Shown piece by piece: positions 9,517 through 56,007 of a stretch of 64,000 nt of DNA. How positions within the stretch are numbered: position 1 is the first letter of the stretch; the number at the start of each line of letters is the position of its first letter. Under the pieces are notes generated by a model. That model searched no databases. It was not told the origin of the DNA and saw only the letters and a program-made list of their open reading frames with translations. Origin of the DNA: Dacryopinax spathularia (taxonomy: Eukaryota; Basidiomycota; Dacrymycetes; Dacrymycetales; Dacrymycetaceae); NCBI GenBank assembly GCA_037974965.1, contig JBBPFI010000005.1:744001-808000 (forward strand), read 5' to 3'. The translations under genes and the position numbers were made by a program.

Positions 9517-11423
9517 ATGTTGCCTCTGCCGTTCTCGCTCTCTTGGCCTGTGCTGGCCGTTGCTGCTCTTGTCTTGTTCGTCTTGAACCGCGCACTTGTC
9601 TACTACCGAGCGCGTCGCGTAAGTCCTCCTTCCAAATGACGCCGTTCCGAGCTAACAATCCGCTTGATTCCTCGATTGGTCTACAGAATGTCAACTTCCT
9701 CCCCGGCCAGACCTGGCTCGTCTCGCCCTTCTCCCTGCCCGGCGCCATCCTCCCCGGGAACAACTACAACCCGGGGATGTCCTTCACCTGGCTCCAGAAA
9801 CGCACTCTCTACACCCGCACCCCGCTCGACCTAGCCAGCGCGACCGGTCTCCTCCTGGGCCACCCGATGATCTACACCAACTCGCCCGAAGTGACCAAGC
9901 AAGTCCTAGGCTCCAAAGCGCCCTGGGAGAAGCTGCGCGAAAGTGTGAATAGTCTTGCTCCGTTTGGGCCGAATGTGTTCGCTACGATGAGGGATGAGTG
10001 GCCCAGACATCGGAAGGCCGTCGCTCCCGGTTTTAATGGCAGGCTGTATCATTCTGTGTTTTCGGAGACGGTGCAGACGTATTATGATTGCATGGCGGCT
10101 GAGAAATGGGAGAAGGAGAGGGAGTTTATCATGCCGGACGTGACGGCTATCACGTCGAAGGTACTTCTTGCCGTTTTGCGTATCCCCAGGAATGTTCGCT
10201 GACGATCTGCATAGTTCGCACTGTATCTGATTGCGAAATGCGGTTTTGGTATCGACCTTTCCTGGAATGAAGATGTCGGCGAGCGGGTGAGGGGGATGAC
10301 CCTCCCTGAATGCTTCGAAGTGACGAGCAAGTCGGTCCTCATTCTATCGTTCTTTCCTCACTGGATGTACCGCCTGCCCATTCCCGCGTACGTTTCACCC
10401 TCTCCTACCCTCTCCTAACAACTTTCCACCTTTTGATGTCAATCTCCAGCTTGCGTCGGCTATACGATGCCAGTAATATCCTCGAGACCATCTTGCAGGG
10501 CATCATCGACAAACGCCGTGCCGAGGGGTTCTCAGACGAAGGTCAACAACGGGACGTATTCAGCCTTCTCTTAGCAGCGAACGAGCTCGAGAAAGGCAGC
10601 AAAGGTGCCCTTACCGATCAAGAGCTCGTTAGTAACGTGTTCTTGCTGCTCTTGGCAGGTCACGGTTAGTCTACCTTGCTCTATGCAAGCAGCTACGTTA
10701 CTGAGGCGATTGGCAGAAACGACCAGCAAAGCCCTAGCAGCTACTTTAGGAGAGCTGGCGAGCAACCCGGCGGAGCAGCAACGCGCGTACGAGGAAATCA
10801 TAAGCGTCGTTAAAGACGGCAAAGATCCCGTAAGAGCCGCTTTGTTGTGCTTATTGGCCACCGCTGATGTTGCATACGTAGACCTACGACGACCTGGAAA
10901 GGCTGCGCTTCACCGAGGCGTGCTTCATGGAAGGCCTGCGGATGTATCGTACGTCGGAGTATGCTGCCTTCCCCCAACCGTGGCTGACATCGCTCCAGCC
11001 AGCGCACTCATGATCGTACGGCAATGCTTTGAGGACACGGTTTTACAAGTCCCAAGCAAAGAAGGTCCGACTGTTCCGTTCCCCGTTCCGAAGAAACAAA
11101 TCATCGGGATAGACTTCACCGGCATCGCGTACAACCCGCGCATATACGCCGACCCATACACTTACAAACCCGAACGTTGGCTCGATCCATCCACGGAGCC
11201 GCTGCTGGCATTTTCCTACGGACCGAGGGTATGCATCGGCAAGCGGTTCGCGGTCGTTGAGTCTACCGGGCTGCTGGCGCTTCTCCTCCGAGACTGGAAG
11301 GTGGAGCCTGTGCTTAAAGGGGGCCAGACGCTTCAAGAGTGGCATGCGGCTTGGGCTGAGCATGTTGAGGGCACGGTCGGCTTTGGGCATAAGCGGTTCC
11401 CGTTAAAGTTCACGCGTCGCTGA
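9517..11423 (+). CDS. Cytochrome P450 monooxygenase, copy 1 of tandem pair
   Basis: Seven exons fit: 9517-9618, 9687-10160, 10215-10387, 10450-10664, 10717-10829, 10882-10948 and 10999-11423, giving 522 residues. An N-terminal membrane anchor occupies residues about 5-23 (SWPVLAVAALVLFVLNRAL), implying ER attachment. The I-helix motif AGHETTS is split by intron 4 near residue 320. ExxR is EGLR (about 375-378), PERW lies near 439-442, and the haem loop FSYGPRVCIGKRFA puts the thiolate Cys at about 460. It should hydroxylate or otherwise oxidise a hydrophobic substrate with electrons from a P450 reductase. The next gene has the same exon lengths throughout, so the two arose by tandem duplication. 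The CYP family number cannot be assigned from memory. Confidence 0.93.
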
Positions 11424-12163
11424 TGAAACGCGATTTGTGTAGACTGCTATCCGAACCATACATCTTTTGCCTAAGCATATAATAGGGCCATTGCCTAGGT
11501 CATTCCGAGGTGATCTGACGGCCACTGAACCTCGGTAAACCTACCGGCCTCTCGTATCTCCGATACTGTCGATCATATCGATGTTCCTCCCTCAATGGAC
11601 CCTGGGATCTCGAGGATCTCGGATCCCCGGGCAAGGCCAAAACCAGTGCCGCACCCTGATCCCGGTGGCTTGCCACACAAATAACAACCACTAACTTCTG
11701 TATTACTTCAGCGCTGACCGACTTGATCAGCCTGCCCGTTGGGACTCTGGATACTATGAACTTATCACCGAAATAAACGTGCAATTCATTGTTCAGCCTG
11801 GAACGCATTCGATCGGCCCCCTGCTCGCAGTTTGGGGTGGAACCGGCGACCACGAACGTCGCCTGTCTGAGCGAAACCAGTACATGAACAATCCAATGAC
11901 ATGGATATCACGCGGGCCAGGAGACGGTGAAGGGTACGCGCCGGTAACGACGGTACATAGCGGCTCGGTCACATTTACCATTTGCGTTTCGATTCTTGCC
12001 TCCTATGTCCGGTATCGGCCCACTTCGTCGCAAACTAGCCGATGAATAGAACAAGGCTCTTCTGAAGGACAGCCGAAGACATCATAAACTCGCTGTGAAG
12101 CAGTGCAGCGCCGAACTCTCGCAAGCACCAAACTCTCCAGTTCCAGCAACTCAACTGGACAAC
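11424..12163. other. Spacer between tandem P450 genes
   Basis: About 740 bases lie between the stop of P450 copy 1 and the start of copy 2. No coding frame or repeat is supported; it should carry the promoter of copy 2. Confidence 0.5.
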
Positions 12164-14044
12164 ATGCTGCCTATCCCCTTCAGTGTGTCATGGACCGAAG
12201 CCATCGTAGTTGCGGTGGTCTTCTTCATCGTTGAGCGTATCGCCAACTACTATCGTATGCGTCGGGTACGCTGTACTTCCATGATCAACCGAATATGCGT
12301 CTGACCCTTCTTCAGGAAGTGTCCTTCATTCCTGGTTTGACCTTCCCGGCGTCACCTCTCTCCATGGTAGGGTCGCTGCTGCCACCGAGCAAGTACAACC
12401 CCGGCATGGGTTTCCCTTTCCCATTCAAAGAAGCACTTTACGAGAAGTCCAACATGGAAGCGGCTACCGTGACGGGATTCCTGACGGGAAAGCCGGTCTT
12501 GTACACGAGCGCCCCGGAGGTGATAAAGCAGTTCTTGGCGAACAAGGCTCCTTGGCAGAAGATTAAGCAGTTTGTGGAAGGGGTGGCACCTTTCGGCCCA
12601 AATGTGTTTTCCACGTACAACGAAGATTGGCACAGACAACGCAAGGCCGTCGCTCCAGGATTCGCTGGTCGACTCTATCCTTCTGTTTGGAACGAGACCA
12701 TCGAAACGTACTACGACTGCATGGCCACCGAGAAATGGGAGAAGGAGAGAGAGTTCATCATGCCGGATGTGACTGCGGTAACATCCAAGGTACAAATCAT
12801 GCCTTGGCGCTTGTTAAGGAACGTCTAATTCGCTCCTTAGTTCGCCCTCTATCTTATCGCAAAGTGTGGCTTTGGGATTCCCCTTTCTTGGAAAGACGGT
12901 GCCGACGAGCGTGTCCGAGGCCTGACCTTGGGGCAATGCTTCGAAATTACCAGTAGCAACGTCGCCACGCTCTGCTTCGTCCCTCGTTGGATGTACCGTC
13001 TCCCCGTACCTTTGTAAGCGATCGGACCTCTAACTGAAACCCCTTGCTAACTGATTTTACACCCAGCCTGCGACGACTGGACGATGCAAGCTATGGCCTG
13101 CAAGTAATGCTTCAAGACATTATAGACAAACGTCGAGCAGAGGGCTTTTCGCAAGAGGACCAGCCAAGAGACATCTTCGGTCTTCTTCTGGCAGCGAACG
13201 AGCTTGAGAAGCGAAGCAAAGGGGCGCTCTCCGATGCGGAACTGTTCAGCAATGTATTCCTTTTCATGATGGCGGGACATGGTCAGTGGCTTTATCGCCA
13301 GTAAGGCAATTGGTCTCCGTCCTAACACGTTGAGCAGAGACAACAAGCAAAGCATTGGCGGCTACCCTCGGAGAGCTAGCTAGTCATCCGGGTGCACAGG
13401 AACGCGCCTACGAAGAAATCATGTCTGTCGTCAAGGACAACAGGGACCCGGTAAGATCCGGTGAATGGTGGGACGTTGCCCTTGGCTTACTTGTTCCAGA
13501 GCTACGATGACTGGGACAGGCTCGCGTATCTCCGCGGCTGTTTCCAGGAAGGGATTCGCTTGTTCCGTACGTCACCTATGGCAGCCTTGATGAGCCAGGA
13601 TCGCTCATGCTTCTCCAAGCTACTGCCATGGTCATCATGCGTGAAGCGACCGAGGACACGGTCCTGCAGGTACCCAGCAAGACGGGCGGTACGGTACCCG
13701 TTCATCTCCGCAAGGGACAGTACATCGCTGGCGATAACGCCGGCATGTCCTTCAACCCTCGTCTTTATCCCGAACCGTACGCGTTCAAGCCAGAGCGATG
13801 GCTCGACCCGGAGACGGAGCCCTTGATGACTTTTTCGTGGGGTCCCCGGATCTGCATCGGAAAGAGGTTCGCCACAACCGAGAGCGCTGCTCTGTTGGCG
13901 TTGCTGCTCCGCGACTTCAGGATCGAACCGCTCCTCAAAGAAGGTCAGACACTGGAGCAGTGGCACGCACACTTCGCGGTGGATGTCGAGGACGCTATCG
14001 GCTTTGGACCAAAGCGATTCCCGTTGAAGTTTATTCGCCGTTAG
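12164..14044 (+). CDS. Cytochrome P450 monooxygenase, copy 2 of tandem pair
   Basis: Seven exons fit: 12164-12265, 12316-12789, 12841-13013, 13067-13281, 13338-13450, 13500-13566 and 13620-14044. Each has exactly the same length as its counterpart in the upstream P450, and the product is again 522 residues. An N-terminal anchor is at residues about 8-25 (TEAIVVAVVFFIVERI). AGHETTS spans intron 4, with the Ser-Lys that follows retained. ExxR reads EGIR, PERW is intact, and the haem loop FSWGPRICIGKRFA places the Cys at about 460. Sequence divergence from copy 1 is substantial, so the duplication is not recent and both copies appear intact. Substrate unknown. Confidence 0.93.
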
Positions 14045-14140
14045 AATGACTCCTTAAGCATGTTACATTGACCTGGCCAGTTACTCGATCTTAGAGGGTA
14101 CTATGTCTGTATACGGACTACGTCATTGAAAACGTGGCAG

Positions 14141-14933
14141 TCAGAAATTCATAGGCTGGCTCAAGCGCGCTGTACTCATCTCGCTCCACATCTGAACGCG
14201 TTTCAGTTGTGTTATCGCTGTGTGGGTGACAACAATGTCATTGAGTATGTCCAATGCCAGTGGCCTAATTAGCAGGCCGCCAGGTCTGGTGTGTGCTCGG
14301 AAGAACCCGCCTGGGGCAGATACGCTTCTAGCCACTGGAGTCTCTTTGGCGTCCAGCAGCTGATGACATAGCTCAGCAGCTTCCTACGGGGAAGGGGAAA
14401 TATGATACTTCGAGATGCTCGTCTGTCAGGCCGCCCGTCCATCTCCAGGCGTATTCCGCTTCTTTCACTCGGAAACTGCGCTTCGTCCGCCAATCACTGT
14501 GTAAGGTCAGCTTCTCTGTAAGGAAACCCTCTGAGGACGGTCTTACTACCGAGGAGCGAACCATCCTCGACGAGAAGCGGCCAGGTAGTCCCAAAGTTTC
14601 ACAGTATTGCTGCCATTTGAGTACCGCAGCTCCATCCGCTGGGGTATATAATGATGCCACTCGATCGTCGCAATTTCCGTTTCCAATCCGCCCTCAACCC
14701 GCCAGATAGTCGTAATATCGGTTCCGAACAGGGGTCTGGTGGACTTGGTCTTTATCTTGATTCTTGAAGGCAAGGTCGCCGTCGACCTGGCTGATAGTTC
14801 CGTCCAGCGGGTGGGGCGTCGAGAACGAGAAGTACTTCGCGTCAGCGAAGTCAGGATAAAGCTCTGCAAGACTCTGCAGCTCTGCTGGTTCTGCTTGTCG
14901 ACGGTCGGATGAGGATCTCTCGAAGACCGCCAT
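14141..14933 (-). pseudogene. DUF6593 protein, frameshifted tandem copy
   Basis: This is a paralog of the intact gene at 15118-15909. Three exons correspond: 14933-14550, 14496-14409 and 14359-14141. The second exon is 88 bases, as in the intact copy, and the splice phases match. Exon 1 reads MAVFERSSSDRRQAE onward, but around 14761-14768, in a run read as TTCAAGAATCAAG, one extra base shifts the frame. Removing one A would restore the family sequence that continues as TKSTRPLFGTDITT. Everything downstream (LWDYLAAS, RFRVKEAEYAW-like, GGLLIRPLALDI) is open and conserved. It is either a young pseudogene or holds a sequencing error. DUF6593 has no known function. Confidence 0.75.
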
Positions 14934-15117
14934 TATGCTCTCTGGCAGGATTGAAGCTGAGGATCCCGGTCGTACGGTGAGGGCGCTACTTATGATCGCC
15001 AGCGTTGAGTCCGGCAATGTTGTCATGCACACGTAGAAGGACATAAGGGGTTCTCCTCGCTAGTTACTACAGCGGTATCGATGATGGTAGATCTTGATCC
15101 TAGATTTGACCCGACAA

Positions 15118-21392: not shown

Positions 21393-24300
21393 ATGGAGAA
21401 ACCTCAGACTCGCTATCCCCCTAAATACGTCACTCAGCAAGCTAAAGATGTCTCTGGATTCATTCCACCTCCGTTCGACGGTTCAATGCCCGTGGGAGAG
21501 TTCATCGACTGGTCAGTGCCTCCCGCGCATTCCCTCTCTGGGAAGCTAATATCTCCCAGGCACCTGAAGTACAGCGAGCATCACCCATTTTGCATCCTGG
21601 TGGAGGATGGAGAACAAGAGAATGTGCCAATCACGCATGGAGAGTGTATGTCCTCCTAGCGCCGTGATCTTCAGCAGACGCTGAGCGATTATTGTAGTTG
21701 CCCGGGCAGCTCATCGAATTGGAAAGGATATTCAGGACGCGGTCACCGACGGACCTGCCAATCCCGATGGCACGCCCAAGACCATCGCTCTCCTCTCGGG
21801 GGCAGACACCTTGACGTACTTCACCGTTATGATTGGCGTGATGCGAGCTGGTTTTGAGGTGCGTCCGGACCCATATGACCTACAGTCCGCTTTCTCAACC
21901 TTTGCAAAGGTCTTTCCCATTTCTCATCGGAACTCGGAAGCCGGACTCCAGCACCTGCTCAAAGCCTCCAACTCGCATTACCTCGTGGGCTCCACTGGAT
22001 GGGACGGCAAACCCCAAACAGCTCTGCAGCAGTCAACTCAGCATGTGCTGAACGAGATGAAGACGAGTCACTACGACATTACCCTGATCCCTGAACCTCA
22101 TTTTAGGGATCTTTATCCTCGGCTCGCCTTGAGACCTGTTCCTGCGTACGATCGAGGTGCAGACGTGGAGCGGACAAGGCTTCTTGAACCCCTCTCCACG
22201 ATGGCATCCTACAGGAATGCTGATCCCAATACCCATCCTTGCTTGATAATGCACTCTTCCGGAAGCACGACATTTCCTAAAGTCATCCGCCAGAATCAGC
22301 GAGCTATGCGTTTCTGGATGAATTGGTTGTGGTACGGCGAGGAGGATGTCGGTGGGACTGTGTGCTGTGCTCTCGGGCTTCCTGTGAGTATGCATAACGC
22401 AGCTCTGACGCGCTTCTAAATCCCCTGGCCTGCGATTAGGGGTTTCATGCTGGAGGCATTACGTTCGGCGTGAGTCACTCACATGCAAGAACTTGATCAT
22501 CTGCTGATACACTGTACCGGATAGCTAGGGTTCCCTATCGGAAGTGCGTACCTCTCCCATCGTCCTCATCGGGAATACTCATTTTTGCAGGTGGGGTAAC
22601 AATGGTCCAGTTCATGCCGTCTGAACCGGTGATGCAAGCCACCACTGAAACTACTCTTATGGGACTTCGGAAGTCAAGATGTGACTGGTGCTTTGGCGTA
22701 CCGGCCTTCCTGAATGTGCGTCGTTGCTGGCAGACGGAATGCTACTGTGTTCTCATTGTTGAAACAGGAATATTCTAACGACCCGGAAGTGATCAAGTTT
22801 CTAGCTAGTCAGCGAGGGATCGTAAGTGTGTGACTGTGCAACTTCGGACGTGTGTTGAGAGCGCGAACAGCTCTTTGGATCTGCACCTTTCCCGGAGGAA
22901 GCCGGAGACCGTCTGTTCGCAGGTGGGGCCAACTTGGTCAACATTTACGGAGCCACAGAAGTTGGCATTGTCACCGGATTATCCTTCAAGAACAAGGCGG
23001 ATTGGCTGGTAAGCTTGATTTACTCGATCGAGTCCTGTTTTCTGAACCTAAGTCACCGACAGTATTCCCAAATTTCGCCCATATGCACTCACCGCCTTCA
23101 ACCAGATGACGAAGATGGAGATGTTTATCGGCTCGTATTTGTGGTCTGATCGCTCAAACACAGAAAGGCCGGAGACAAGCTAATAAGGGGGCAGGCAAAT
23201 GAACACTACTCGCCCAACGTGTACAATATTCCTGGAGAAGCCGCGTATGACACGAATGATGTCGTTGTGCCACATCCTATCCATAAGAGTCGTTACCGTA
23301 TTCTTGGGAGGTCGGATGACCAGATCATGCACTCAACTGGGGAGGTAAGTACACCAACTCGCCAGGGTTGTCGTTGCTGACATACCGTAGAAAACCAATC
23401 CGGGTCCTCTCGGTGAGGGAGAATCCACTTTCTTGTCGCCGGTCCATTGACATGGAGCAGAAAACATCATTGCGGGTTCGCCTTTGGTCAAAGCTGCCGT
23501 CTATTTCGGCCGAGAGCGTACTCAAGCGGGAGTTCTGATCGAGCCCTTCACCCCGATCGATGTTACCTCAGAGGCCGCCATCGCAGACTTCCGCAATGCG
23601 ATCTGGCCTTACGTGGATCGAGCCAACAAATTTGGACCCACGCAATCGAGAGTCTTCAAGGAATACATTCTGGTGGCAGATCCAATAACGAAACCGCTAG
23701 CCCGGACACCGAAAGGTTCTATAGCACGGAGTTCGGTCTTGAGGCAGTACGAGGATGAGATCAACCAAGTCGGTATCTCTGGTTGCCACAGGACGCGCTT
23801 ACAACTATTCCCCAGATTTACTCCGCCGTAAACAAATACCATCAATACGACTGGGCCAAACCACCTTCCTCATGGAATGTAGACAGCATTCTTGCCTTCA
23901 TCAAAAGGGTCGTCAACGGCGTAATGGGAGAGGGACGCATTGGCGACGTGGATCCCAAGCAGGATCTCTTTGAGCAAGGATGCGACAGGTGCGGTCCCAA
24001 AAAATTCATACGGACAACTGCTTATCATAGTACAGCTTACAAGCCACCCTCATTCGCAATGCCATTGTGAATGCTCTGCGAACTCAACCACCGGCCTTGA
24101 TGGAGGGGCTTTCACGAAAGCCTCGGGACACCGCCCGAAGCGTTCCTCAAAATGCTGTCTTCAAGTTTCCATCAATCACAGCACTGGCTTTGTTTGTTTC
24201 TGGACTGATCGAGGGCGGAAAGAATGACAATGAATACGATGATCATGTGGAAGCAATGCGATCGCTTGTCCAACAATATAGCCAAGGTTGGCCCGCGAGA

Positions 24301-25649
24301 AGCCAGGCGAACGGCAAGACCTGTATTACGGGGAAACATACCGCCCACGACCATTCAGATCTCGAATGCGTTCTCTTGACAGGGACGACTGGTACACTTG
24401 GTGCCTACCTGCTCTGGTCGCTCTTATCCAATGAGAAGGTCGGCAAAGTCTACGCATTCAATCGCCCGGCCGCAACCAAGTCAATTGTCGATCGACAGAC
24501 GGAGGCGTTCAAGGATCGCGGTATCGCCGTTGAACTAGTCGGCCATCCCAAACTCGTCTTGTTGGAAGGCGATACTGCCAAGGAGAATTTGGGAGTGCAT
24601 GCAGGTCTTTACGCTGAGGCACGTCCAGTGGTCGATGTCGTTCATTTTCTGTACTAATCAGTTACCAGCTTGTCTCGTCAATAACCTGCATTATTCACAA
24701 TGCTTGGCGGCTCGACTTCAACATGGGCGTTTCCTCTTTCGAATCTCATGTCCGCGGTGCAAGGAATCTGATGGACCTTGCTCTGAAGTCTCCTCGAGAG
24801 ACACTGCCACGATTCCTCTTTACCTCATCCATTGGCACGGTGGCGAGCTGGGACCGTCAAGGCCCAGTACCGGAGGTACCACTGGAAGCTGAATTTGCCG
24901 TTGGAAATGGATATGCGGAAAGCAAGTGGGTTGTCGATAGAGTGAGCGTGGCCTTTACTATCACTTGGTTTCCACTGAGCCTCGCTTCAGATCATGATGG
25001 AGGCCTCCAGAAATTGTGGACTACCGACAGTCACATTCCGTATTGGACAGCTGGCTGGCTCTAGGCTCAATGGTGCTTGGAACACCACGGACTGGGTACC
25101 CCATATAATTAATGCTGCATGCGAAATAAACTCGCTACCCTTGGTGGAAGAGGAAGAGGTAGTGTCTTGGCTGCCTGTGGACGCGGCCGCCGCCTCGGTG
25201 AGAACTGCAGGTCCCAATGCTGCGTGAAAGGCTGAGCGGCTTTCCAGATCATCGAGGTCATGCACAAAGTTCGCGATGGCAATCATACGTTCCACATTTG
25301 CCATCCTTATCCGACCACCTGGAACTCAGTCATGCGGCAAGTGGCAGCTTACCTCGGTACTCGAGGACGTCATATCCAGTTCGAACCGTACTCCTTGTGG
25401 TTGAGCAGTTTGCAGGCCTTGGAGGACGACCCAGCTGCGATACATAGAGTACCGGCGCTTAAACTACTCAACTTTTTGCGTTGGGCTATACGCCCACACC
25501 ATTACGAGCGGGAGGCTTTGGGATTCCCCATCATCGATACTGCAAAAACGAAATTGCTCGCGGATACCTTGAGGAATCTGCCGCAACTGGATTCTAGCGA
25601 TATTCAGCGCTGGATGACGTACTGGGACGCGCACTGTCTGTTTCCTTGA
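21393..25649 (+). CDS. NRPS-like carboxylate reductase (A-T-R)
   Basis: Seventeen exons fit: 21393-21511, 21560-21645, 21698-22383, 22440-22469, 22529-22547, 22591-22715, 22768-22821, 22871-23008, 23063-23143, 23195-23344, 23391-23412, 23461-23768, 23792-23988, 24036-24618, 24669-24941, 24991-25197 and 25248-25649, about 1159 residues. The adenylation domain shows HSSGSTTFPKV, YGATE and RYRILGRSDDQ with TNPGPLE. The carrier domain has GCDS, its Ser being the phosphopantetheine site, created across a splice junction. The reductase domain has TGTTGTLGAYLL (NADPH), IIHNAWRLDFN, TSSIGTVASW and a YxxxK (YAESK). Such enzymes activate a carboxylic acid as adenylate, load it as thioester and release it reductively as aldehyde or alcohol. 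Two micro-exons (30 and 19 bases), a 23-base gap at 23769 and a GC donor at 24619 are uncertain. It is tail-to-tail with a P450 gene. Confidence 0.88.
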
Positions 25650-25752: not shown

Positions 25753-27814
25753 TCACAATGCTCTTCTGGTGAATTTGAGCGGGAAAGGCTGAGGTCCGAA
25801 ACCAATGTTGCTTTCGACGTGCTTCTCCCACACCTCTTGCCATTCGGCAAGAGTTTCCCCGGGTTTCAACACCGGCTCGATCTTGTAGTCGCGAAGCAGC
25901 AGACTAAGCAGCCCCACGGATTCGGCAAGGGCGAATTTCTTCCCGATGCAGACGCGCGGTCCATAGGAGAAGTTGAGCAGGGGCTCAGTGGTAGGATCTA
26001 GCCAGCGTTCTGGCTTGAATTCATAGGGTGAAGGATAGATCCGCTCGTTGTAGCCAACACCGATCCAGTCCGCCCACATGTACTGACCGGCTTTCACGGG
26101 TACGGTAATGGTGGATCGCCCGTCTGTGGTCGGCACTGAAAGGGTCGTGTCTTCGAGTGGTGCACGTATCATGGCATTTGAGCTCGCTGGGCGAAGAAAT
26201 GGGTCACTCGTGAAATATGATGCAAGGAAATGACTCACGGAACATTCGTAGACCTTCGTTGAAGCATCCTTGCACGTACGGTAGCCGTTCGAAGTCATCG
26301 AAGGTCTACATAAGATGAGGAGGACGATCCATAAAATGGCGGATGCTGCAGTGCTTACGGGATCGCCCCTGTTCCTCAAAACACCCATCACCTCTTCGCA
26401 CGCTCTCTGTTGCTCCTCAGGGTGAGACGCCAGCAGACCCAATGTGGCCGCGAGCGCTCGACTTGTCGTTTCTAAATCATCTGAGATCAGCAACGCTTTT
26501 GTTGTTACAATATAACCACGCACCATGTCCAGCAAGAAGCAGCAAGAAGACGTTGCTCACGAGCTCACGATCCGTCAATGAGGCCTTACTGTCCTTCTCC
26601 GCCGCATTGGCCTTCAGAAGATGGGAGAAGATGTCCCTGCGTGTGTCGTCGTCTGTGCCTGCAATACCTTGGGCCCGGCGCTTATCGATGATTCCTTGCA
26701 GGATCATCTCCAGCGCCTTTTTGGCTTTGCTCAGTCGTCGTACCCTATGCCTGTAAGCTGATACGATATAAAGTATAAAGAATGACCTACGATTTCAAAG
26801 GCAAATAGAACATCCATCGAGGGAGCATGGATAGTATAACGGACGACCCGCTCGTTACTTCGAAACATTCCGTCATCGTCATCCCGTTGACCTTCTCGCC
26901 GATCGACTCGTTCCAAGAGAGGTCGATGCCAAAGCCGCACTTGGCAATCAGATACAGTGCGAACTGGGCAGACAAATCAGTACATATATGGGACAGCGAG
27001 GAGGAAAGGCGGAACCTTTGATGTGATGGCCATCACGTTCGGCATGATAAATTCCCGTTCCTTCTCCCATTTCTCGGTTGCGAGGCAGTCGTAGTACGTG
27101 TTGATGGTCTCGCTCCACACTGCGTGATATCTGCCCCAGTCAGTTGAGCCTACCATGCGAAATCAGGTGCAGTGGTGCACTCACAAGTTTGGCGAAAAGC
27201 CAGGCTGGACAATCCGACGATGTCTCGGCCAGTCAGCCTTATTTGTCGAAAAGACGTTCGGGCCGAACACTCTGGCATGCCACGGCGATCAGAGGTGGGG
27301 AGGAAGAAGTCGAGGTTGGACTTACGCAAGTGTCGCACTAATGAGATCCGGTTTGTCCCAAACTGTCTTGTACCCAAGCATCTGCTTGGCCACTTCCGGA
27401 GAATTGCTGATCATCATCGGCTCGCCGCCTAACCAGCCCAGTTCTGATACGATCTCCGCTTCTCGGTTCTTGTAGACTGGAATAGACGCGTCAGTCGAAT
27501 CCAATCTACCGAAATCGGCCGCCCTAGGCAGACGTACCCTGTTTCCGGTCATACCAGAGTGACAGGTTCCCGGGGTTGTACTTCGTAGACGGAAGGAGAG
27601 CGCCAGGAATTGACATTGTCGAAAAGAAGTATCTTCGACCTGGGAGGTATGATACCATCTTCCCCCATTGCTATGTTAGCCCGAATCCCCATCTTCGCGT
27701 GACTGGATGACGAACCGCGAGTTCGCGCGAATAAGCCACGATCCGCCGGACCACCAGGAGCAGAGCCAGTCCACCCAGAAGGACTGGCCATGAGATGGGT
27801 AGTAGCGGTATCAT
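25753..27814 (-). CDS. Cytochrome P450 monooxygenase, third paralog
   Basis: Ten exons fit: 27814-27716, 27658-27538, 27476-27326, 27271-27185, 27130-27016, 26963-26791, 26750-26524, 26471-26359, 26305-26239 and 26186-25753, giving 528 residues. The N terminus MIPLLPISWPVLLGGLALLL is an ER anchor. AGHETTS spans intron 7, ExxR is EGLR, PERW is intact, and FSYGPRVCIGKKFA places the haem Cys at about 464. Exons 2-5 add up to 474 bases, the length of the single second exon of the tandem P450s at 9.5 and 12.2 kb, so it is a close paralog with more introns. Only about 100 bases separate its stop from that of the convergent NRPS-like gene, suggesting possible joint use in one pathway, which is inference. 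Confidence 0.93.
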
Positions 27815-31640: not shown

Positions 31641-33417
31641 ATGGCGGCTAAGATCTCGCACTTCGAAGTAAAAGGCAAGCTGGTCCTTGTCATGCTGAGG
31701 TCCTAGCTAAGAGATTATGTTCTCGAGACATTCGGTTTCCGACCAGTTTGACTGGTGCAGGCACAGATGCTATGTACGTCCTCTTGCACGCTTCCGCACT
31801 TTCGGACCTGACCCTTGTCCTTAGGAACGTAGACTGCGACTACTCCGCCGCCTACATTGCCCTACACACCTCCGACCCATCCCTCTCCGGGTATGGGATG
31901 ACATTCACCATCGGCCGAGGCACAGAGATCGTCTGCGAAGCCATAGAACAAGTCGCAGCCAGACTCATCGGGAAAGATGTAGAGGAGCTGTTTGCGGATA
32001 TGGGGAAGACGTGGACGTTCTTGGTTGGGGATTCGCAGTTGCGATGGTGCGCCTTACCCTTACCGTTGTACGGGAATCAGACTGATGGGTAGAAAGGATC
32101 GGACCGGAGAAGGGTATCATCCACCTGGCTACGGCGGCGGTAGACAACGCTCTGTGGGACATGTATGCCCGCTCGAGGAAGAAACCGCTTTGGAAGTTGG
32201 TGTCAGACTTCACTCCGGTACGTATACATACTGGCCCGTCAGAGAGCGCAGTAACACCGAAGTGTAGGAAGAGTTCGTTCGAAGCACCGCGTTCAGGTAC
32301 ATCACCGACGTGATCACGCCTGAGGAAGCGCTTGAGATGCTCAAAGCCAAAGAAGCCGGAAAGAAGGAAAGAGAGGCTCTCGTCCGAGCGATCGGGTATG
32401 CACGGTCGAGTTCGTGACAAAGGAGCCCAGGCTGATACGAGTTGCTGCAGATACCCAGCATATATCACCTCTGCCGGATGGCTTCTCTATGACGATGAGC
32501 AAGTAGCAAGGCTGACGAAAGAAGCCATCGGGAGGGGCTTCAACCACTTCAAGATGAAAGTCGGCGCCGACCTGCAGAACGACCTCCGCCGAGCAAAACT
32601 CATCCGCTCAATCATCGACGACCCCGCCAACCTCTCCCCCGGCAAGATCGTCGACCCCGCCAGCATAGCGGGGAAGAACGCCGGCCCCACGGGCAGCGTG
32701 CTAATGATGGACGCGAACCAAGTCTGGGATGTGCAGGAAGCGATCGACTATGTCGTCCAGCTTGCCCCGACGAAGCCGTGGTTCATCGAGGAGCCTACTG
32801 CGCCGGATGACATTTTGGGTCATGCGGCGATCAGGAAGGCGCTGAAGCCGTATGGGATTGGGGTGGCGACGGGGGAACATGCGCATAATCGGATGGTGTT
32901 TAAGCAGCTGCTGGAGGCGGAGGCGATCGATGTGTGCCAGATTGATAGCTGCAGGTTGGCGGGGGTGACAGAGATCCTTGGTGTGCTGCTCATGGCTGCG
33001 AAGTGGGATTATTCTTACACAGCATGCTGCCCGTAGCTGATATTTGGGCAGGTTCGGCGTCATCGTCTGCCCTCATGCCGGTGGTGTTGGCTTGTGCGAA
33101 CACGCCTTGCATCTCTCGCTGATCGACTATCTCTGCGTATCCGGCACGATGGAGCGTAACGTGCTGGAATACGCTGACCATCTGCACGAACACTTCGTCA
33201 ACCCCGTCACGCTGAACAGTAATGGGAGATACAACGTGCCTAACGACCCAGAGGAGGGCTACAGGCGAGCGTTTTCTCCTTCTTACTTGGTATTCGACTT
33301 AGTGACATGCGACGCAGCACGCATATGAAGGACTCGGCATTCGAGGAGTTCGGGTTCCCGAACGGAGCGTACTGGAAGAGTGTCGCAGAGGGCAAGCCGA
33401 AGACTGTGCTTTTGTAA
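31641..33417 (+). CDS. Enolase-superfamily sugar-acid dehydratase (L-fuconate dehydratase/ENOSF1 type)
   Basis: Eight exons fit: 31641-31674, 31728-31773, 31825-32046, 32097-32217, 32268-32395, 32451-33002, 33052-33264 and 33318-33417, about 471 residues. The N-terminal capping domain begins MAAKISHFEVKDIRFPTS. In the barrel, HFKMKVGADL carries the catalytic Lys-x-Lys, metal ligands appear in LMMDANQVWD, WFIEEPTAPDD and GVATGEHAHN, and a His acts in VCPHAGGVGL. The C terminus GYSTHMKDSAFEEF matches the human ENOSF1 type. Family members dehydrate L-fuconate or related sugar acids. Two introns (31675-31727 and 33265-33317) need GC donors (G|GCAAGC and AG|GCGAGC); GT alternatives destroy the conserved start or end. 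Predicted cytosolic or mitochondrial; the substrate is inferred from similarity. Confidence 0.9.
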
Positions 33418-39507: not shown

Positions 39508-41655
39508 ATGCAGCCTCTCACTCCTCTCCCTCTTAGGCAACATATCCTCTCTGAACTCTCTTCTCTGCCTGGGAAAAGGGAACTGCAGCTCGTGGTGCTG
39601 GTCACGCCGCCTAAGAGAACGAGTGGGCTGTATCCGTATGCGAGCAGGCCGAGGGTGAAGAGCTGGGTGCAAGAGGTTCTCTTACTGCTATTTGAACGCG
39701 TTCCCGACACACGCACCACCACCACTTCCGACCCCACCTCTACGGACGAGCAAGCCCGGTCGAGCGAGGCCAAGGATGGCGGCACGACGGGGCAGGCAGG
39801 CCAGGGAGGGCGAAAAGCCTGCATAGCAGCGCTCGAAGCCTACCTCCATCTTCTCCCCACAACCCAATCCTGCATCCTCTACATATCAAAACTCGACTCC
39901 TCCGGGCTCGCCCTCCCCCCTTCCCCTACCAGCCTCCTAGCACGCTCATTCCTCTCTCATCTCTGTTCCCCTCTCTTCCGACCCTCGCCCAGTGTATGGG
40001 TACATGTGTTCGCGAGAGCGCAAGGGCAGTATCTGTTCCCTACTTCGAGCGAGAATGGGAGGAAGAGGGTGTTGGGGGATACGAGGTTGTGTGCGTGGTG
40101 GAAGGGCGTGTTGGAGGGTGTGGTGAGGGGGGTCGTACCCGAATCTGCGGAGAAGCCGAGGGCTGTCGTACTTCCTTTGGCGTCCTCCGAACCAGGCGCA
40201 GGCGAGGGAACACGATCAGCGGAAGAGCAGGGAGAAGAGCAAGGGAATGGAGAGGGAGAGGGAGAACGAAGGGTGGAGAGCGCTGCTCTGCATATCCCAG
40301 CCGCCTCACATCCACCAAAATACGCAGCCTTCTACCTCCTCCCCGGCTATGGGGAACTCGAAGCCGCCCGTCTCCTCGCCCCATCCTCCGCTTCCGTACC
40401 CAGCACGACCAGCCCAGGAAAACCGCCCATAAACTGGACATACGGCCACCCTTACACGCCCCTCAACCCCTTTCCATTCCCTTCCAGCGCTGCTTTCCCC
40501 CCTCCCTCCTCTCCTTCGCTCGCTACCGACCCTTTCCTCGCCGACGGCGCCCCGTCTGCGTCTGCAGCTGCAAGTACCCCTGCGAGTGCGAGTGCGAGTG
40601 CCAGTGCCAGTGCGGCAGCGGCGAGTATTGCGAACCTCATACCGGCTTTTGAGGATGATCCGAAGACGCGGTTTGTCCAGGAGTTGGCTAGTGATGTCCA
40701 GCCTTTGGCGGTTGGGCCGAGGAAGAGGCAGAGGACTGGGGTTGGGCCGGTGCCGGGGTCTCCGGTGAAGAGGAGGAAGGTTGAGGCGGTCGACGAGGAC
40801 ATGCTCAGGGACACGTCGAGGGCAAAGGAGGATTCCGGTGAGAACGGCTCACCAGAGGGAGGAGAACGAGCCGGGCGGGAAAAGGAGAAAGACGCCGGGA
40901 AAGAACAGCGGCGAGAGAAAGAGAAGGAGAAGGAGAAGGAGAAGGAGGATGCCCCGACAGCCGAAGAACGCGCCCTCTCCCGAATCTCAATCGACGAGTT
41001 CTGGGAACTCATGCCCCATCGACAAGAATGCTCAAGCGGGGCAGTGACCGCTTTCTTCGTCTTGGTGTTCCCTCCTCCCTCCCCCTCTTCATCCCCATCC
41101 CCATCTCCACCACCTCCTCCTTCCACCGCTCCCTCCCCATCTCAGAACCCGGCGAAGACGAACGGCACCCCCTCCAATTTAGGCAAGAAACACCCAGCAG
41201 CTCCAATCGGCCCAGCACTGAAGTCTGACGACCCCTCCCCACCGCCCAAACTCGGGCAGGTCCTCCCTTCTGTCTTGGCCCGGATCAGGTCCCGTCTGCT
41301 GGACTTGGAGTTCGGGAATGTCGAGGCTGCTTATCGGAGCAGTAGCGTGCTGGAAGATCTTGTGAGGTCGTGTTGTGCTGTCGTTCCCCACTCACAACCA
41401 CAATCACAACCACAACCACAAGCAACAGCTGGACCATCTGGTCCTGGCGAGACGGCAACGGAGGAGAAACCTGGCGGGGTGGAGAGCGGAGCGATTGGAG
41501 AAAGAGGGGAGGATATGTACACCCAGTATGTGTGTGCGAGTGTGCTGGTTGATAACCCACCGCTTGCCCGGAGAGAGGTTGAGAGACGGGAGGAGGCGAG
41601 GCCGGCGGTGATTAATGTTTTGCAGGTTAAGAGGAAGAAGCGGCCTGCTGCCTAG
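39508..41655 (+). CDS. RTT109: Histone acetyltransferase Rtt109
   Basis: A single uninterrupted exon of 715 residues, unusual in this intron-rich window. Rtt109 (KAT11) acetylates histone H3 Lys56, with the chaperones Asf1 or Vps75, during replication-coupled nucleosome assembly. The N-terminal domain starts LRQHILSELSSLPG and continues GLYPYASRPRVKSWVQEVL. A core motif reads QYLFPTSSENGRKRVLGD with WWKGVLEGV. FEDDPKTRFVQEL at about 381-393 contains Asp-Asp-Pro-Lys as in budding yeast, where that Lys is autoacetylated. FWELMPHRQECSSGAVTAFF closes the fold. Between the last two lies a low-complexity insert of about 95 residues rich in Lys, Glu and Arg, with nuclear-localisation-like KRRK, and a second Pro/Ser-rich insert follows. 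The start is the first ATG that gives the family N terminus. Confidence 0.92.
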   Translation: MQPLTPLPLRQHILSELSSLPGKRELQLVVLVTPPKRTSGLYPYASRPRVKSWVQEVLLLLFERVPDTRTTTTSDPTSTDEQARSSEAKDGGTTGQAGQGGRKACIAALEAYLHLLPTTQSCILYISKLDSSGLALPPSPTSLLARSFLSHLCSPLFRPSPSVWVHVFARAQGQYLFPTSSENGRKRVLGDTRLCAWWKGVLEGVVRGVVPESAEKPRAVVLPLASSEPGAGEGTRSAEEQGEEQGNGEGEGERRVESAALHIPAASHPPKYAAFYLLPGYGELEAARLLAPSSASVPSTTSPGKPPINWTYGHPYTPLNPFPFPSSAAFPPPSSPSLATDPFLADGAPSASAAASTPASASASASASAAAASIANLIPAFEDDPKTRFVQELASDVQPLAVGPRKRQRTGVGPVPGSPVKRRKVEAVDEDMLRDTSRAKEDSGENGSPEGGERAGREKEKDAGKEQRREKEKEKEKEKEDAPTAEERALSRISIDEFWELMPHRQECSSGAVTAFFVLVFPPPSPSSSPSPSPPPPPSTAPSPSQNPAKTNGTPSNLGKKHPAAPIGPALKSDDPSPPPKLGQVLPSVLARIRSRLLDLEFGNVEAAYRSSSVLEDLVRSCCAVVPHSQPQSQPQPQATAGPSGPGETATEEKPGGVESGAIGERGEDMYTQYVCASVLVDNPPLARREVERREEARPAVINVLQVKRKKRPAA

Positions 41656-50291: not shown

Positions 50292-50520
50292 CCTTGCTTA
50301 TTGTTGGCAGGACGTTGGTGCTCAGTAGCGTGCGGTTAGGGTGTCGGTTGTGTCTGGGGTGGATGTTGCAGGTGAAGACGATGTGTGATTGTTGGTAATG
50401 AATGTGGGTTTGAAATGAGAGTTGTGATGCTGTAAGAGCAAAGGCTGAGTCGGTTCTTCTTGCTATGTCGAGGTGGGTGATTAGGCTGTATATGCAGGTC
50501 GCGTTCCTATACGCTGTCGA

Positions 50521-50540
50521 GGGGGGGGGGGGGGGGGGGG
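50521..50540. repeat. Homopolymer of 20 G
   Basis: Twenty consecutive G residues followed by a purine-rich AGGAAGGGAGGAGG stretch. Length of such runs is often misread, so the exact count is uncertain. Confidence 0.8.
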
Positions 50541-51207
50541 AGGAAGGGAGGAGGGAGGGGGACGATGTCAAACGTGGAGCACGACGACGAAGAGGAGCAA
50601 AAGGGAGGGGGACGGGTTGCTGCGGTGAGCGTATGGTGTGCTGTGCTGGAACGCAAACGCGCGGGTCTCTCGCGATCAGAGCAAGCGACCCGTTGTTTGC
50701 CGAGTGCTTCTCTCAGTCGATCACCCCCTTCCCGCGTTCCTCTCCTTTCTCCTCGGGCGCGTGTAATGAATGCACAACGAACGGTCTGGAACGCAACTCC
50801 CAGTTCACCCAGTAGTGCACCCGATCGTCCCCCCCTCGTTCTCCACCGAAAATCACACAACCACAAAGGACTTTCGATAAAGCACAACGAACGGCGTTTG
50901 GGGAATCTTCCCATGGAACGCGTCGTTATGCAAGGGGCGCGGGCGTATTTTGGATTCTTGTGTGGGGCTGGGCCCTGAGCGGGACGCGTGCAAAGACTCG
51001 GAGTTGCGGAGCCGAGATGAAAGAGCACGTGACTCATACCGATCGATCACTCGTGCAAGCCCCGATCTCCCCGCACATGACGCCGAACTGATCGCTTGTT
51101 TCGCTTGCTCACCACCATCTTCTCCGCAATGCGGATCCTCTGAACTAAGTTCTGGATAACTATGATGGGTTCGCTTGTTCTGAAGTGGGGGAGATGGTCG
51201 TTTCTGT

Positions 51208-51235
51208 GCGGGGCGGGGGCGGGGGCGGGGGCGGG
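51208..51235. repeat. GGGGGC tandem repeat
   Basis: Four closely spaced G-runs of four or five separated by single C residues. The pattern could form a G-quadruplex and resembles repeated GC boxes. Confidence 0.8.
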
Positions 51236-51716
51236 AAGGCGGGGATGATGTCAAATACCGCGCGTTCTGCAGGACATCATTGGTCTTCCAGCTCAGAATG
51301 GCTGAACTTCAGCGCCACGTCGTTCTCTTCCTCCAGCAATCTCCGCTCTTTCCACTTGCGTACATCGTGCTGTGGAGGACAATGAAGCGATACAAGCTAT
51401 AACTCGATAGTAGGACGCGATCCAATCGATCAACAAGCCCAGACCCCGTCAGGTGCGTTGGTTTTGGTTGGAACGCTCAGCGTCACGGATCGGACGCGAC
51501 CTAGGATCGAACATCGATCGACCCCTCCTCTCCATCATCCAGACCACCCGCGTCCCCCCAGCAAAAACAGGGAGATTCCAGCTTCATATGGTGCCGATCC
51601 TCACGCATGAGAGCTCCCGAGGCTGGCGATCCTCCCCCTTCTCCGTCCAACTAGAGTCCCTCCTTACAAGCTTCGGGTAGATCGACGTCACCCCCCTCTC
51701 CTCCGCCCCGCCCGCG

Positions 51717-51724
51717 TATATAAA
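51717..51724 (+). promoter_or_regulatory. Putative TATA box of small charged protein
   Basis: TATATAAA lies about 105 bases upstream of the ATG at 51826 and is followed by a C/T-rich stretch typical of fungal transcription start regions. Confidence 0.6.
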
Positions 51725-51825
51725 CTCCCCTTCCCTCCCTCCCTCTCTGCGAATCAGACCTGCAACCGCAAACCGCCCCGAAAGACCCGACGAAACCAGC
51801 CGCACGCTACGAAAGAAGAGCAAAG

Positions 51826-52140
51826 ATGTCCGCTAACAACGATTTTGCCGTCAATGCTGATCCTGATACGGCTGTGGACTACAAGCGGGAGGACGCGGAG
51901 GCCGCCAAGTCCGAGCAGACGGGTACGATCCCCAAGTGTGAGTACCCTCCCCCTCCCCCTCCCCGGCCGCCTGCACGGACTGACACGATACGATCAACAG
52001 CCGAGGTGGACGCCCTGGGCGGAGAGAAGAACTATGTAGAGGGGTATACGAGGGGGAAGAAGGTGGACGCGATGCGCCAGGAGAGGGAGGTGGACGAGGC
52101 TGTCGAGAGGGCCACGGCGGAGGATCAGGGGATGAACTAA
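51826..52140 (+). CDS. Small charged hydrophilic protein, unknown
   Basis: Two exons fit: 51826-51937 and 52001-52140, encoding 83 residues. The intron has a GTGAGT donor and a clear acceptor and keeps the frame. The product is very hydrophilic: MSANNDFAVNADPDTAVDY, then lysine- and glutamate-rich stretches with SEVDALGGEKNYVEGYTRGK and a C-terminal acidic helix. No signal peptide, membrane segment or cysteine is present. A strong TATA box and pyrimidine-rich leader suggest an abundantly expressed or inducible gene. The composition is reminiscent of small stress-associated proteins, but I cannot name a family. Confidence 0.7.
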   Translation: MSANNDFAVNADPDTAVDYKREDAEAAKSEQTGTIPKCEYPPPPPPRPPARTDTIRSTAEVDALGGEKNYVEGYTRGKKVDAMRQEREVDEAVERATAEDQGMN

Positions 52141-52955
52141 GACCGTGTAGCGCGCGGGCCGGCAGGCGACGGGGTGATGCTGTACAACGATGCCAGACGG
52201 GAGATGCGAGATGTGAGATGTGAGATGTGAGATGCGAGATTGGAGATGGCTTTGTGTGATTATCCAGTGAACAGAGTGCAGCGTGAACGTATGAACCTGA
52301 ACAACGCTCAATCCATTGTACCTATGACCTGTAACACGACAAGTTTCATCTCTTCGAGGGGTCTCCTGAACCGAAGCACGGTGTCTGACGCATGCCATCG
52401 GGGGGCAGGAAGTCCCGAGGTCGCTGATGCATTTGCGGTCTCGTCAAATCCTCTTGATTGATCTGCACCGTCGGAATACTTGACGGGAAATGTGTTCGAT
52501 TGAAGTCTCCACTGGGATTCGGGATTCTCAGGTATCGAGCGACCGACTGACAACTCGCCCCGTCAGACCGCCCGGAGAACCAAAAGATTCGGAGTCCGCA
52601 GACCATACTCCGGCCGGGGCTCCGCTAGAGAAGAGGCAAGTCCGGCATGGTATGCGGCTCTGCCGTGTCCTGACTCTTCAAGTCGACGAGTAGCTTGCCT
52701 ACCTTGTCATCGCTAGCATCGAGACGGTGACAATGCATATATAACTCCAATCCAAGTAAGGTCCAAAGGAGCATTCAAACCAACCTCCAGTATTGAAGCC
52801 ACAGCATCATCCTATATACTAGTACCTAGTACCTAATACCTCACAACAAGGTTCGGCCTCTTTCCTCCAGTCCAGTCCAGTCCCACTCCCACTCCTCGCC
52901 TGCGGCACCCGATACAGTATCACCTATTTATTCCCTGACACATGAGCAGCGCAAG
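52141..52955. other. Intergenic region
   Basis: About 800 bases with a heptamer repeat at its start and no supported gene. Confidence 0.5.
52201..52240. repeat. GAGATGT/GAGATGC heptamer tandem repeat
   Basis: Five full 7-base units (GAGATGC, three GAGATGT, GAGATGC) and a partial sixth lie just downstream of the small charged protein gene, probably in its 3' untranslated region. Confidence 0.85.
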
Positions 52956-53271
52956 ATGCCCGCCTGGACCAACCAGAAAGAGTTCTGGGCGCGTACCACC
53001 TTGCCCAGCCTGCAACGGCACCGGCACCGGCGTCGAGCAGGGCCGTCTGGATACGGAGCTTACGGAGCTCTCGTTCGACCGGCTGGCTCACGAATGAGGA
53101 TTGCAGGGTTTTACTTGGGCCTTGGCTCGGCGAGGGACTTGGACGGTCAGTCTGCTCCTTTCTGGTACTGTAACTTAGGGGAAGAGTCGGAGGGAGAGGT
53201 GCTGATGTTTTGAGCTGGCAGGGGAAGAACGCGCTTATTACTATAAGGTCAAGCCTGGCAAGTTTTTCTAA
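52956..53271 (+). pseudogene. Decayed copy of the mini zinc protein gene
   Basis: The start MPAWTNQKEFWA parallels MPAWSNEKEFWA of the gene at 46651-46836. After about 13 codons the frame changes: CPACNGTGTGVEQG, the counterpart of CPECNGTGIEQG, is in another frame. The second cysteine motif is only faintly recognisable around 53125-53145 and a stop intervenes. At 53222-53271 a segment reads EERAYYYKVKPGKFF before a stop, matching a segment downstream of the intact gene on a shared AAGGTCAAGCCTGG core. This is best explained as a degenerate paralog on the opposite strand. Confidence 0.65.
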
Positions 53272-53982
53272 TACGGACATGTGGGATGGGACGGGAGTTG
53301 GGAAGGTGCAGCTGGTTGAGGGATAATCGTATATTCTTTGGAATAGCGCTGTTCCAACCGCTTTGCCCGATGGCGGCGTCATCGGCAATATTTCCTCCGG
53401 GCCCGCGAAGCAGAAGAGGTCATCCGGAAGACCCCATCATCTAACCCACAAAACTATGGCTGAACTTGGCTCCTCTCTACCTGGATCAGTCTATCTATCT
53501 TCAGGTCGCCAACGTATCGTCAGAGCTGAAGTTCTTTACACATCGTTTGACTGAGCTGGCAGCACAGGATGCACATCAACTTGTTCAGGGGTCTCGGGAT
53601 GATGGCTCATGGCAGCTTGCGGCTCCGCAGGAGCATCGAATTCCCTACTTCAATCAATCCAGAGCAAGAGCATTGGTTTCTATTTCCGCTCTGGAAGCCG
53701 ACCAGTTCTCCGCTGGCTACTGTTTAGCAGAGGGATAGTCAACAAATAGCTCACACGTTCTCCTCGGTGCCGCAATTCCCGCATCCCTAAACGCCTCGTT
53801 CAGGGACTACTGTATGCTCTTCTCTGCGCCTCCCATCCAGGATCTTCGACTTCGAAAGTCGAAAACGTCATCATTCTCCACAACGCGCTCCTGTGCTGGG
53901 TTAATGGTGTGACAACGATAAAAGCCCTGAAGGGCGAGAGGGGTGTCATCGTCCTCTGGGCATTCCAGCTCCTTGGCGAACT
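53272..53982. other. Intergenic region upstream of fifth P450
   Basis: About 700 bases with only short frames (for example 53466-53738) lacking family features. It should contain the fifth P450's promoter. Confidence 0.45.
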
Positions 53983-56007
53983 ATGCTCAACTGGATGTTG
54001 CTGGCCGGGATCGGCGCGATCACTTGGGCGATCTACTGTATGAGTCATCATCGGCGACAACTTATGGTGAGTGGGATCTTGCGAGCGATATGAATATGGA
54101 CGGGATCTGAGGATATACACAGGAAGTGCAGTATCTTCCTGGACCGCGACCGTTTTTCTCTCCTTTCTCGCTCCTTGGCGCGCTTTTGCCGACCAATGAC
54201 TACAATCCTGGCTTGCTCATGAGCTGGGTTGGGAGGTACAGCCGTAAGTACCACACGTGCTTATGAGAGTAGGTTGACCGACAGGGACGACAGTATGGGA
54301 GAGATACGGCAGCGAAATCATCGCCCTCGTTCCGCTTATCCCTGGCCGATCGGTATTGTACACTCGTTCTGTGGAAGTCGCGAAGCAGATCCTGGCCCAC
54401 AAGTCCGACTGGGACAAGGTACCAGTGCAAGTGGACAGTTTGGCGTGCGTCTGGTCAGTTTGCAGCGCAACTTCCTATTCTGACTTTCTTGTAGGATGTT
54501 CGGCGAAAACCTGTTTTCGACTTACCAGGATCAATGGCAACGGCATCGCAGGATCGTGGCGCCTGGATTTCGTCAGGCCTTGTAAGCAACATTCCTGTCT
54601 CACATGCAGGCGAGACCGAATTGCTCTACAGATACGAGAAAGTTTGGAACGAGAGCATTCGGACATACTACGACATGACTCAAACGGAAAGCTGGTTTGC
54701 GGGCGATGTCTTCGTTCATCCAGACGTGACAGCCATGGCCTCCAAGGTCGGTACGCACACATCTCGACGAAGCATAAACCATAGTTTGAGAAGGAACCAG
54801 ATCGCGCTCTACTTGGTCGCTTCCTGTGGGTTCGGTATGGCTCTTAACTGGAAGGATACCGTTGGGGAACAGATTGGCGGCTTGACGCTGAATGAGTGCT
54901 TTCGGATCGCCTCTTCTTCGATCTATGTCCAGATCTTCCTGCCGAAGTGGGCATTCCGGCTACCCGTGCGACCGTGAGCCCTGCTTTTTTCGCCCTTCTA
55001 GATAACGGACTGACTCATTTGCAGCCTGCAGAGAATTCGGGAAGCTAATCAGGTACTCGAATCTATCCTGAGACGTATAATCGAGGATCGCCGAAATGAA
55101 TATCCAAAGCCTGCAGAAAGTAGTGCGGATCAGGACGTGTTCAGCCTGCTCGTCGCAGCGAACGAGCGCGAACCGGACCTGAAAGATGCGTTGACGGACG
55201 ACGAGCTTGTCAGCAACGTCTTCCTGCTCATGGTCGCCGGCCACGAGACGACTAGTCATGCGCTGGCATCGGCTTTGGGTCTTCTGGCTTGCCATCCGGA
55301 TATCCAGAATAAAGCGCATAGCGAAGTAATGAGAGTGGCACAACATGGAGATCCGGTAGGCATCAGAGTAACATCTGCGCTCCTGCATTAACGCCTGGTT
55401 CGCCCAGACCTTCCAGGAATCCGACAGTCTCATATACACCCAAGCATGCTTCCTGGAAGCTATCCGTATCTTCTGTAGGTTTCGCCTTGAATGAGTGACC
55501 GGGAATGACTCATGAAGTCTGCGCAGCTAGCGTCTCCGGCATGCCTCGACGTGCGACAAGAGACACGATTCTTCGGATCCCTTCCTCGAAGAATGGTGTG
55601 ACGGACCTTCACATCAGAGCGGATCAATACATCGTAATCGATCTTTTTGGTGCTTGTGAGATCCATGCTTGTATGCGCAACTGATGCCTCGCTGACACCT
55701 GGCAGGCTACGATTCTCGCCATTACCTCGATCCAGGAGAATATCGACCGGAACGATGGCTTACTCCTGGCACCGATCCAAACTTGATATTCGGAGATGGG
55801 CCGCGAGTTTGTGTAGGACGCAAATTCGCTTTGAAGGAAGGCACAGCGATATTGACCATGCTGGTTCGGCACTGGTTCATAGAACCTGTGCTGAAAGAGG
55901 GAGAGACGCTTAGGCAGTGGAGGCAGCGATCCTTGGAAGGATCGGTGGCCAATGCTCTGGGTTTCGGACCAACCTCGTTCCCGCTTCGATTCAGAAGGAG
56001 AAGGTGA
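53983..56007 (+). CDS. Cytochrome P450 monooxygenase, fifth paralog
   Basis: Ten exons fit: 53983-54066, 54123-54243, 54294-54444, 54495-54581, 54632-54746, 54801-54973, 55025-55355, 55408-55474, 55527-55655 and 55706-56007, giving 519 residues. The anchor is short (MLNWMLLAGIGAITWAIYC). AGHETTS is within one exon, ExxR is EAIR, PERW is intact, and the haem loop is IFGDGPRVCVGRKFA with the Cys at about 455. Asp replaces the aromatic residue found in the other four (FSYG or FSWG). Exons 2-5 have the same lengths (121, 151, 87 and 115) as in the third P450 28 kb away, and an extra intron lies between the ExxR and haem regions. Substrate unknown. Its stop is 40 bases from that of the convergent F-box gene. 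Confidence 0.92.

Follow-up and report, generated by a model that had tools for sequence, protein, structure and literature searches.

The stretch analyzed here (the window: 64,000 nucleotides of contig C5 of Dacryopinax spathularia, accession JBBPFI010000005.1, starting at contig position 744001) carries five predicted cytochrome P450 genes, named g1 to g5, which share several exon lengths to the base and differ in the introns that they hold. A sixth paralog, g0, lies to the left of the window (Table 1). Most of the intron differences among these genes are best read as exact losses from an intron-rich ancestor, as set out below.

Exon structure of the P450 cluster

Gene models were predicted from genomic sequence alone, with start codons picked automatically; the stop of g3 and the ends of g4 were taken from hand-set models and a later alignment run. 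Exon lengths were obtained with a purpose-written protein-to-genome spliced aligner, which takes a reference protein and the splice consensus (GT- or GC-AG introns of any phase) and is not supplied with intron positions. The first reference was the protein of g2, whose model had been set by hand and was then aligned to its own protein in that run; when the g1 protein and later a six-gene profile were used as references instead, the same exon lengths were returned.

Both cluster proteins that were scanned whole, out of six, exceed the Pfam p450 cut-off of 22.8 bits (g1 with 218.6 and g5 with 188.2), and so do pieces of others on contig C5. The heme-cysteine motif of P450s, FxxGxRxCxG, and their I-helix motif, AGxxT, were seen by eye in all six spliced cluster proteins. 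Judged from sequence, g0 and the five window genes can be assigned to the cytochrome P450 superfamily. When g1 was searched against the whole genome (24 contigs totaling 29.2 Mb), 62 exon matches were listed, of which every one with at least 40% identity falls within 734.7 to 800.0 kb of contig C5, in the five window genes and g0. The latter is 78% identical to g1 and equals g1 and g2 in its exon lengths. The next-best match in the genome, L010 on contig C2, is 30 to 34% identical to the six cluster genes and serves as the outgroup.

According to the original prediction, the coding sequence between the first intron and a 173-base exon amounts to 474 bases in all five window genes, undivided in g1 and g2, split into 121+151+202 in g4 and into 121+151+87+115 in g3 and g5; the 173-base exon and a 67-base exon are invariant; and an intron at AGH/ETTS is present in g1, g2, and g3 and absent from g4 and g5. 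The spliced aligner recovered each of these features. What had been missed was g0 and an extra intron in the last exon of g5. Downstream of the 474-base block, the exons measure 173, 215, 113, 67, and 422 bases in g1 and g2 and, counted up to the end of the match, 173, 221, 113, 67, and 425 bases in g3, 173, 364, 67, and 434 in g4, and 173, 331, 67, 129, and 296 in g5. The complete last exons, stop codon excluded, have 422 (g1 and g2), 431 (g3), 458 (g4), and 299 (g5) bases. A search of the window for the pattern AGHETT found matches only in the two genes without that intron. Across the six cluster genes and L010, 51 of 52 introns have GT-AG borders, a consensus that the aligner nearly imposes; retention of the intron would cause a frameshift or a stop at 51 of the 52 as well, the exception being a 54-base intron of g5.

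The 474 bases correspond to 158 homologous codons without a single indel among the six cluster genes, and the block introns sit at g1 codons 75, 125, and 154 in phases 1, 2, and 2. Since L010 likewise arrives at 158 codons, through one codon lost and one gained, the number 474 itself shows no sign of being kept.

Table 1. Predicted P450 genes of the cluster and a neighboring gene (window coordinates unless stated otherwise; exon lengths in brackets)
Feature	Position	Strand	Structure	Basis
g1, P450	9517-11423	+	exons 9517-9618, 9687-10160 (474), 10215-10387 (173), 10450-10664, 10717-10829, 10882-10948 (67), 10999-11423; AGH/ETTS intron 10665-10716	spliced alignment; Pfam p450 E 1.9e-64
g2, P450	12164-14044	+	exons 12164-12265, 12316-12789 (474), 12841-13013 (173), 13067-13281, 13338-13450, 13500-13566 (67), 13620-14044; AGH/ETTS intron 13282-13337	hand model and spliced alignment
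g3, P450	25753-27814	-	block 27658-27538 (121), 27476-27326 (151), 27271-27185 (87), 27130-27016 (115); 26963-26791 (173); AGH/ETTS intron 26523-26472; 26305-26239 (67)	spliced alignment
g4, P450	33607-35730	-	block 35579-35459 (121), 35396-35246 (151), 35140-34939 (202); 34854-34682 (173); 34625-34262 (364, without AGH/ETTS intron); 34181-34115 (67)	spliced alignment
g5, P450	53983-56007	+	block 54123-54243 (121), 54294-54444 (151), 54495-54581 (87), 54632-54746 (115); 54801-54973 (173); 55025-55355 (331, without AGH/ETTS intron); 55408-55474 (67)	spliced alignment; Pfam p450 E 3.1e-55
g5, extra last-exon intron	55656-55705	+	codon and phase match an intron of the distant paralog L010	spliced alignment
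g0, P450, outside the window	about 734.7-736.6 kb of contig C5 (7.4 kb before the window start)		exons 102, 474, 173, 215, 113, 67, 422
Adenylate-forming reductase-type gene, between g2 and g3	21685-25061	+	AMP-binding pieces (under the curated cut-off), AMP-binding_C_3 and NAD_binding_4 (both above it)	Pfam

Intron positions and the direction of change

We mapped the introns of g0 to g5 and L010 onto the protein alignment, leaving the other P450 genes of the genome out of the matrix. The 52 introns fall on ten positions, each occupied in at least two genes at identical codon and phase; none is private to one gene. Named by alignment column and phase, the positions are 52.0, 92.1, 142.2, 172.2, 211.0, 268.2, 353.1, 391.0, 413.1, and 457.1, where 92.1, 142.2, and 172.2 are the block introns (172.2 separates the 87- and 115-base exons), 353.1 is the AGH/ETTS intron, and 457.1 is the last-exon intron. 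Scored in this order as present (1) or absent (0), g0, g1, and g2 all read 1000111110, g3 reads 1111111110, g4 1110110110, g5 1111110111, and L010 1111101111. The outgroup shares all three block introns and 457.1 with cluster genes, codon and phase included, and two of the eight introns of a more distant P450, L026, map to 92.1 and 211.0. The first exon of L010 was set by hand, and its automatic model, which had a 38-base GC-AG intron near AGH, was replaced by one with a 50-base block that has a GG donor and ends at a normal acceptor. This AGH/D intron, at about 2370 to 2425 of L010, may be a noncanonical intron, a trace of a decayed gene, or an assembly error.

In the trees, g0, g1, and g2 form a clade (support 100/98 in one run and 99.5/100 in the other), as do g0 to g3 (100/99 and 98.5/100). 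The grouping of g4 with g5 is weak (50/38 and 54.8/55, or 81/64 in the one tree to which L026, the sole further P450 of the genome used in this way, was added), and a placement of g4 with g0 to g3 is not rejected (p = 0.36). A union of g4 with g0 to g2 that excludes g3 is rejected by the approximately unbiased (AU) test (p = 5.7e-5), the clade having been chosen after the first tree was viewed. On the tree with g4 and g5 as sisters, a loss-only history takes eight changes, as many as unrestricted parsimony, versus 14 for gain only; for two other placings of g4 and g5, 8 or 9 changes compare with 16 for gain only.

Because L010 has the four-exon block, the undivided block of g0, g1, and g2 would have arisen when three adjacent introns disappeared, and the three-exon block of g4 when a single one did. 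On this comparison, the three block introns appear ancestral and their later absence is resolved as loss. Rejection of g4 with g0 to g2 further implies two or more losses of 172.2, barring a regain in g3; we conclude that it was lost once in the ancestor of g0 to g2 and once in g4. A loss history would likewise require that 353.1, 457.1, or both disappeared twice.

The cluster had originally been described as a clean natural series of exact losses or gains among neighbors. The changes are indeed clean and exact, and the direction left open there is loss at the three block introns, which L010 has; at the AGH/ETTS and last-exon introns loss seems the likelier direction, with less certainty. The idea of a series holds only in part: since 172.2 was lost twice, as was 353.1 or 457.1 (or both) if change there ran toward loss, the four-, three-, and one-exon states form no single ladder and are not steps of one lineage.

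A proposed history of loss and its alternatives

We consider it probable that the cluster descends from one intron-rich P450 ancestor by exact losses through recombination with complementary DNA (cDNA), the cDNA step being one that we infer. The six genes would go back, by duplication, to a single P450 gene whose short introns numbered about nine or ten. In the common ancestor of g0, g1, and g2, the three block introns would have been removed exactly and with no indel, and g4 would have lost the third of them separately. The AGH/ETTS intron likely disappeared in the lineages of g4 and g5, and the last-exon intron likely did so in those of g0 to g4. In each case the gene would have recombined (by gene conversion) over an internal tract with an intron-free cDNA made from its own spliced messenger RNA.

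Within 12 codons on either side of the five lost sites, the six cluster genes show no indel except a two-residue insert in g4 near 457.1. Introns were removed exactly between their splice sites, as is expected of cDNA-mediated loss. Three adjacent introns were lost on one branch, which suits a cDNA tract, whether in one event or three. Reverse transcriptase (RVT_1) has 57 matches genome-wide, of which 37 lie in frames of more than 1000 amino acids; matches on contigs C19, C23, and C24 contain TGA and may be mitochondrial. As a separate observation, ten reverse transcriptase matches across several contigs share a score of 131.4 bits in frames of about 1300 amino acids, which suggests recently spread retroelements.

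Several points weigh against this history. There is a single close outgroup, taken from the same genome and sitting on a long branch, and six of the eight L026 introns match none of the ten positions. The 353.1 intron of L010 was counted as present with its GG donor and hand-set boundaries. Parsimony is indifferent at three positions: two gains cost as much as two losses at 457.1 when g4 is sister to g5 and at 353.1 when it is not, and one gain costs as much as one loss at 268.2, which L010 lacks. The chance that three introns lost among nine fall adjacent is p = 0.083. A 3' bias is absent, the lost block lying in the 5' half of the gene; because the introns downstream of it are retained, simple poly-A-primed conversion would be insufficient. 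The reverse transcriptases do not discriminate between mechanisms. Finally, g0 and g1 use the same codon at 192 of 388 conserved residues and the other pairs at 35 to 42%, as counted without synonymous divergence (dS); with codon sharing so low, the events appear to be old, and tracts of conversion would escape detection.

An alternative that we regard as unlikely is that separate genomic deletions, repaired by end joining, landed by chance on the splice sites. The single block-intron loss in g4 requires no cDNA, a 3' bias is missing, and the L010 copies of these introns have repeats of up to 4 nucleotides across their splice sites (4 at 142.2 and 2 at 172.2). However, at the lost sites the reading frame continues exactly, one branch shares three adjacent losses, and the copies retained in the cluster, which are extant and not ancestral sequences, are flanked by repeats of 0 to 1 nucleotide, so that end joining has little to make its deletions exact.

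It is also conceivable, though decidedly improbable, that gene conversion from an intron-free paralog accounts for part of the losses, the repeat loss of 172.2 in g4 being an example. The donor would sit in the same array, and protein identity among g0 to g3 is 77 to 90% in columns 172 to 211 versus 30 to 68% in columns 92 to 142. In the former segment, g2 and g3 use identical codons at 19 of 28 sites versus 85 of 233 elsewhere (p = 0.0019), with similar excesses for g0/g4 (11 of 16, p = 0.031) and g2/g4 (9 of 14, p = 0.039). However, the segment was picked post hoc and 15 gene pairs were tested by segment identity and identical codons, among which no signal survives correction for pair and segment. 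In addition, g4/g5 shows an equal excess (10 of 14, p = 0.023), and the identity of g4 in columns 142 to 172 is higher with g5 (72%) and g3 (62%) than with g0 to g2 (48 to 55%). A bolder version, in which this intron is a loss hot spot and array members are converted time and again by the intron-free cDNA of a neighbor, in a concerted shedding of introns, strikes us as very improbable. Columns 172 to 211 (about 12681-12789 in g2 and 27016-27130 in g3) are in any case a stretch in which g0 to g3 are far more alike than in the preceding exon pair, reflecting either strong constraint or an old conversion.

Hardly credible, finally, is a history of intron gain, with a single-exon 474-base ancestor and later insertions in g3, g4, and g5: the undivided block is found in three genes, and gain at 268.2, 353.1, and 457.1 is no costlier than loss on at least one tree tried, but on the best tree each block intron would need three insertions at the same codon and phase versus one, one, and two losses, which contributes to the overall 14 changes against 8.

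Intron differences in other P450 genes and earlier reports

Differences of a similar form occur in two other P450 groups of the genome. In a trio on contig C3, the 89- and 488-base exons of L017 correspond to a single 577-base exon in L012, which is also without the intron at L017 codon 66, its length there differing by one codon (340 versus 165+178 bases); L016 has one additional intron at codon 88. In a pair on contig C12, exons of 74+113 and 96+126 bases in L026 face exons of 187 and 222 bases in L019, whose model has doubtful GC introns elsewhere. These groups are the ones that could be modeled and do not amount to a genome survey, and their fusions are unpolarized. Usable models came from L026, L019, L012, L016, and L017 (the trio with L017 as reference). 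Partial alignments or doubtful introns led us to set aside L011, L013, L014, L015, L018, L020, L022 to L025, L027, and L028, and L021 gave nothing above the aligner threshold.

Clean differential intron loss is a known kind of gene-structure change. In the available part of the Cryptococcus study (Sharpton 2008, PMC2395259), losses form mostly internal islands, some of them multi-intron and adjacent, for which meiotic recombination or self-priming is proposed; its five-genome screen gives 31 losses and no gain, and one polymorphic gained intron is mentioned in a section heading. The present case is similar in its exact losses, internal islands, adjacent introns, and loss in more than one lineage, as in some genes there; that study, as far as its available text goes, concerns close species with a 3' tendency, whereas our case concerns old paralogs and a gene's 5' half. 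Phanerochaete chrysosporium (Doddapaneni 2005, PMC1184071) likewise has clustered P450 paralogs, with introns often of 45 to 55 bases, and its clusters of more than three genes vary in intron number and position, as here; the accessible text attributes the differences to older duplication or translocation without polarizing them on a tree, whereas here they are polarized. Tandem P450s with conserved exon sizes and intron places are likewise described for enriched basidiomycete P450 families (PMC3899305), where the term "intron loss" is absent from the main text as available. In grasses (PMC4256211, available in part), the same intron was lost independently and adjacent, small introns were lost preferentially; that comparison is of plants, genome-wide and between species, whereas ours is of paralogs in one genome. 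A literature search for intron loss in fungal P450s found nothing on that subject. Given these precedents for the phenomenon, the events described here are ordinary, though easy to read, and the cluster adds a tidy case to what is already in print.

Neighboring genes

Given the make-up of the reductase-type gene beside them, the P450s may be part of a secondary-metabolism locus. Elsewhere in the window, an open frame at 2517-4151 (544 amino acids) carries an HTH_Tnp_Tc5 DNA-binding domain, an Enolase C-terminal-like (MR_MLE_C) frame at 32332-33036 adjoins g4, and a frame of 715 amino acids at 39508-41655 carries a HAT_KAT11 histone acetylation domain. Two adjacent frames at 58178-59239 and 60424-61215 have IBR (half-RING) domains and are perhaps duplicated ligase genes.

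Implications

With six paralogs in about 65 kb and an outgroup from the same genome, the cluster is a compact polarized case, and it indicates that intron differences within a fungal P450 cluster can be mainly losses. Since one and the same intron can disappear on two occasions, the presence of introns is a poor guide to relationships among the genes of such clusters. The exact exon lengths of this P450 family, in turn, are usable by gene finders.

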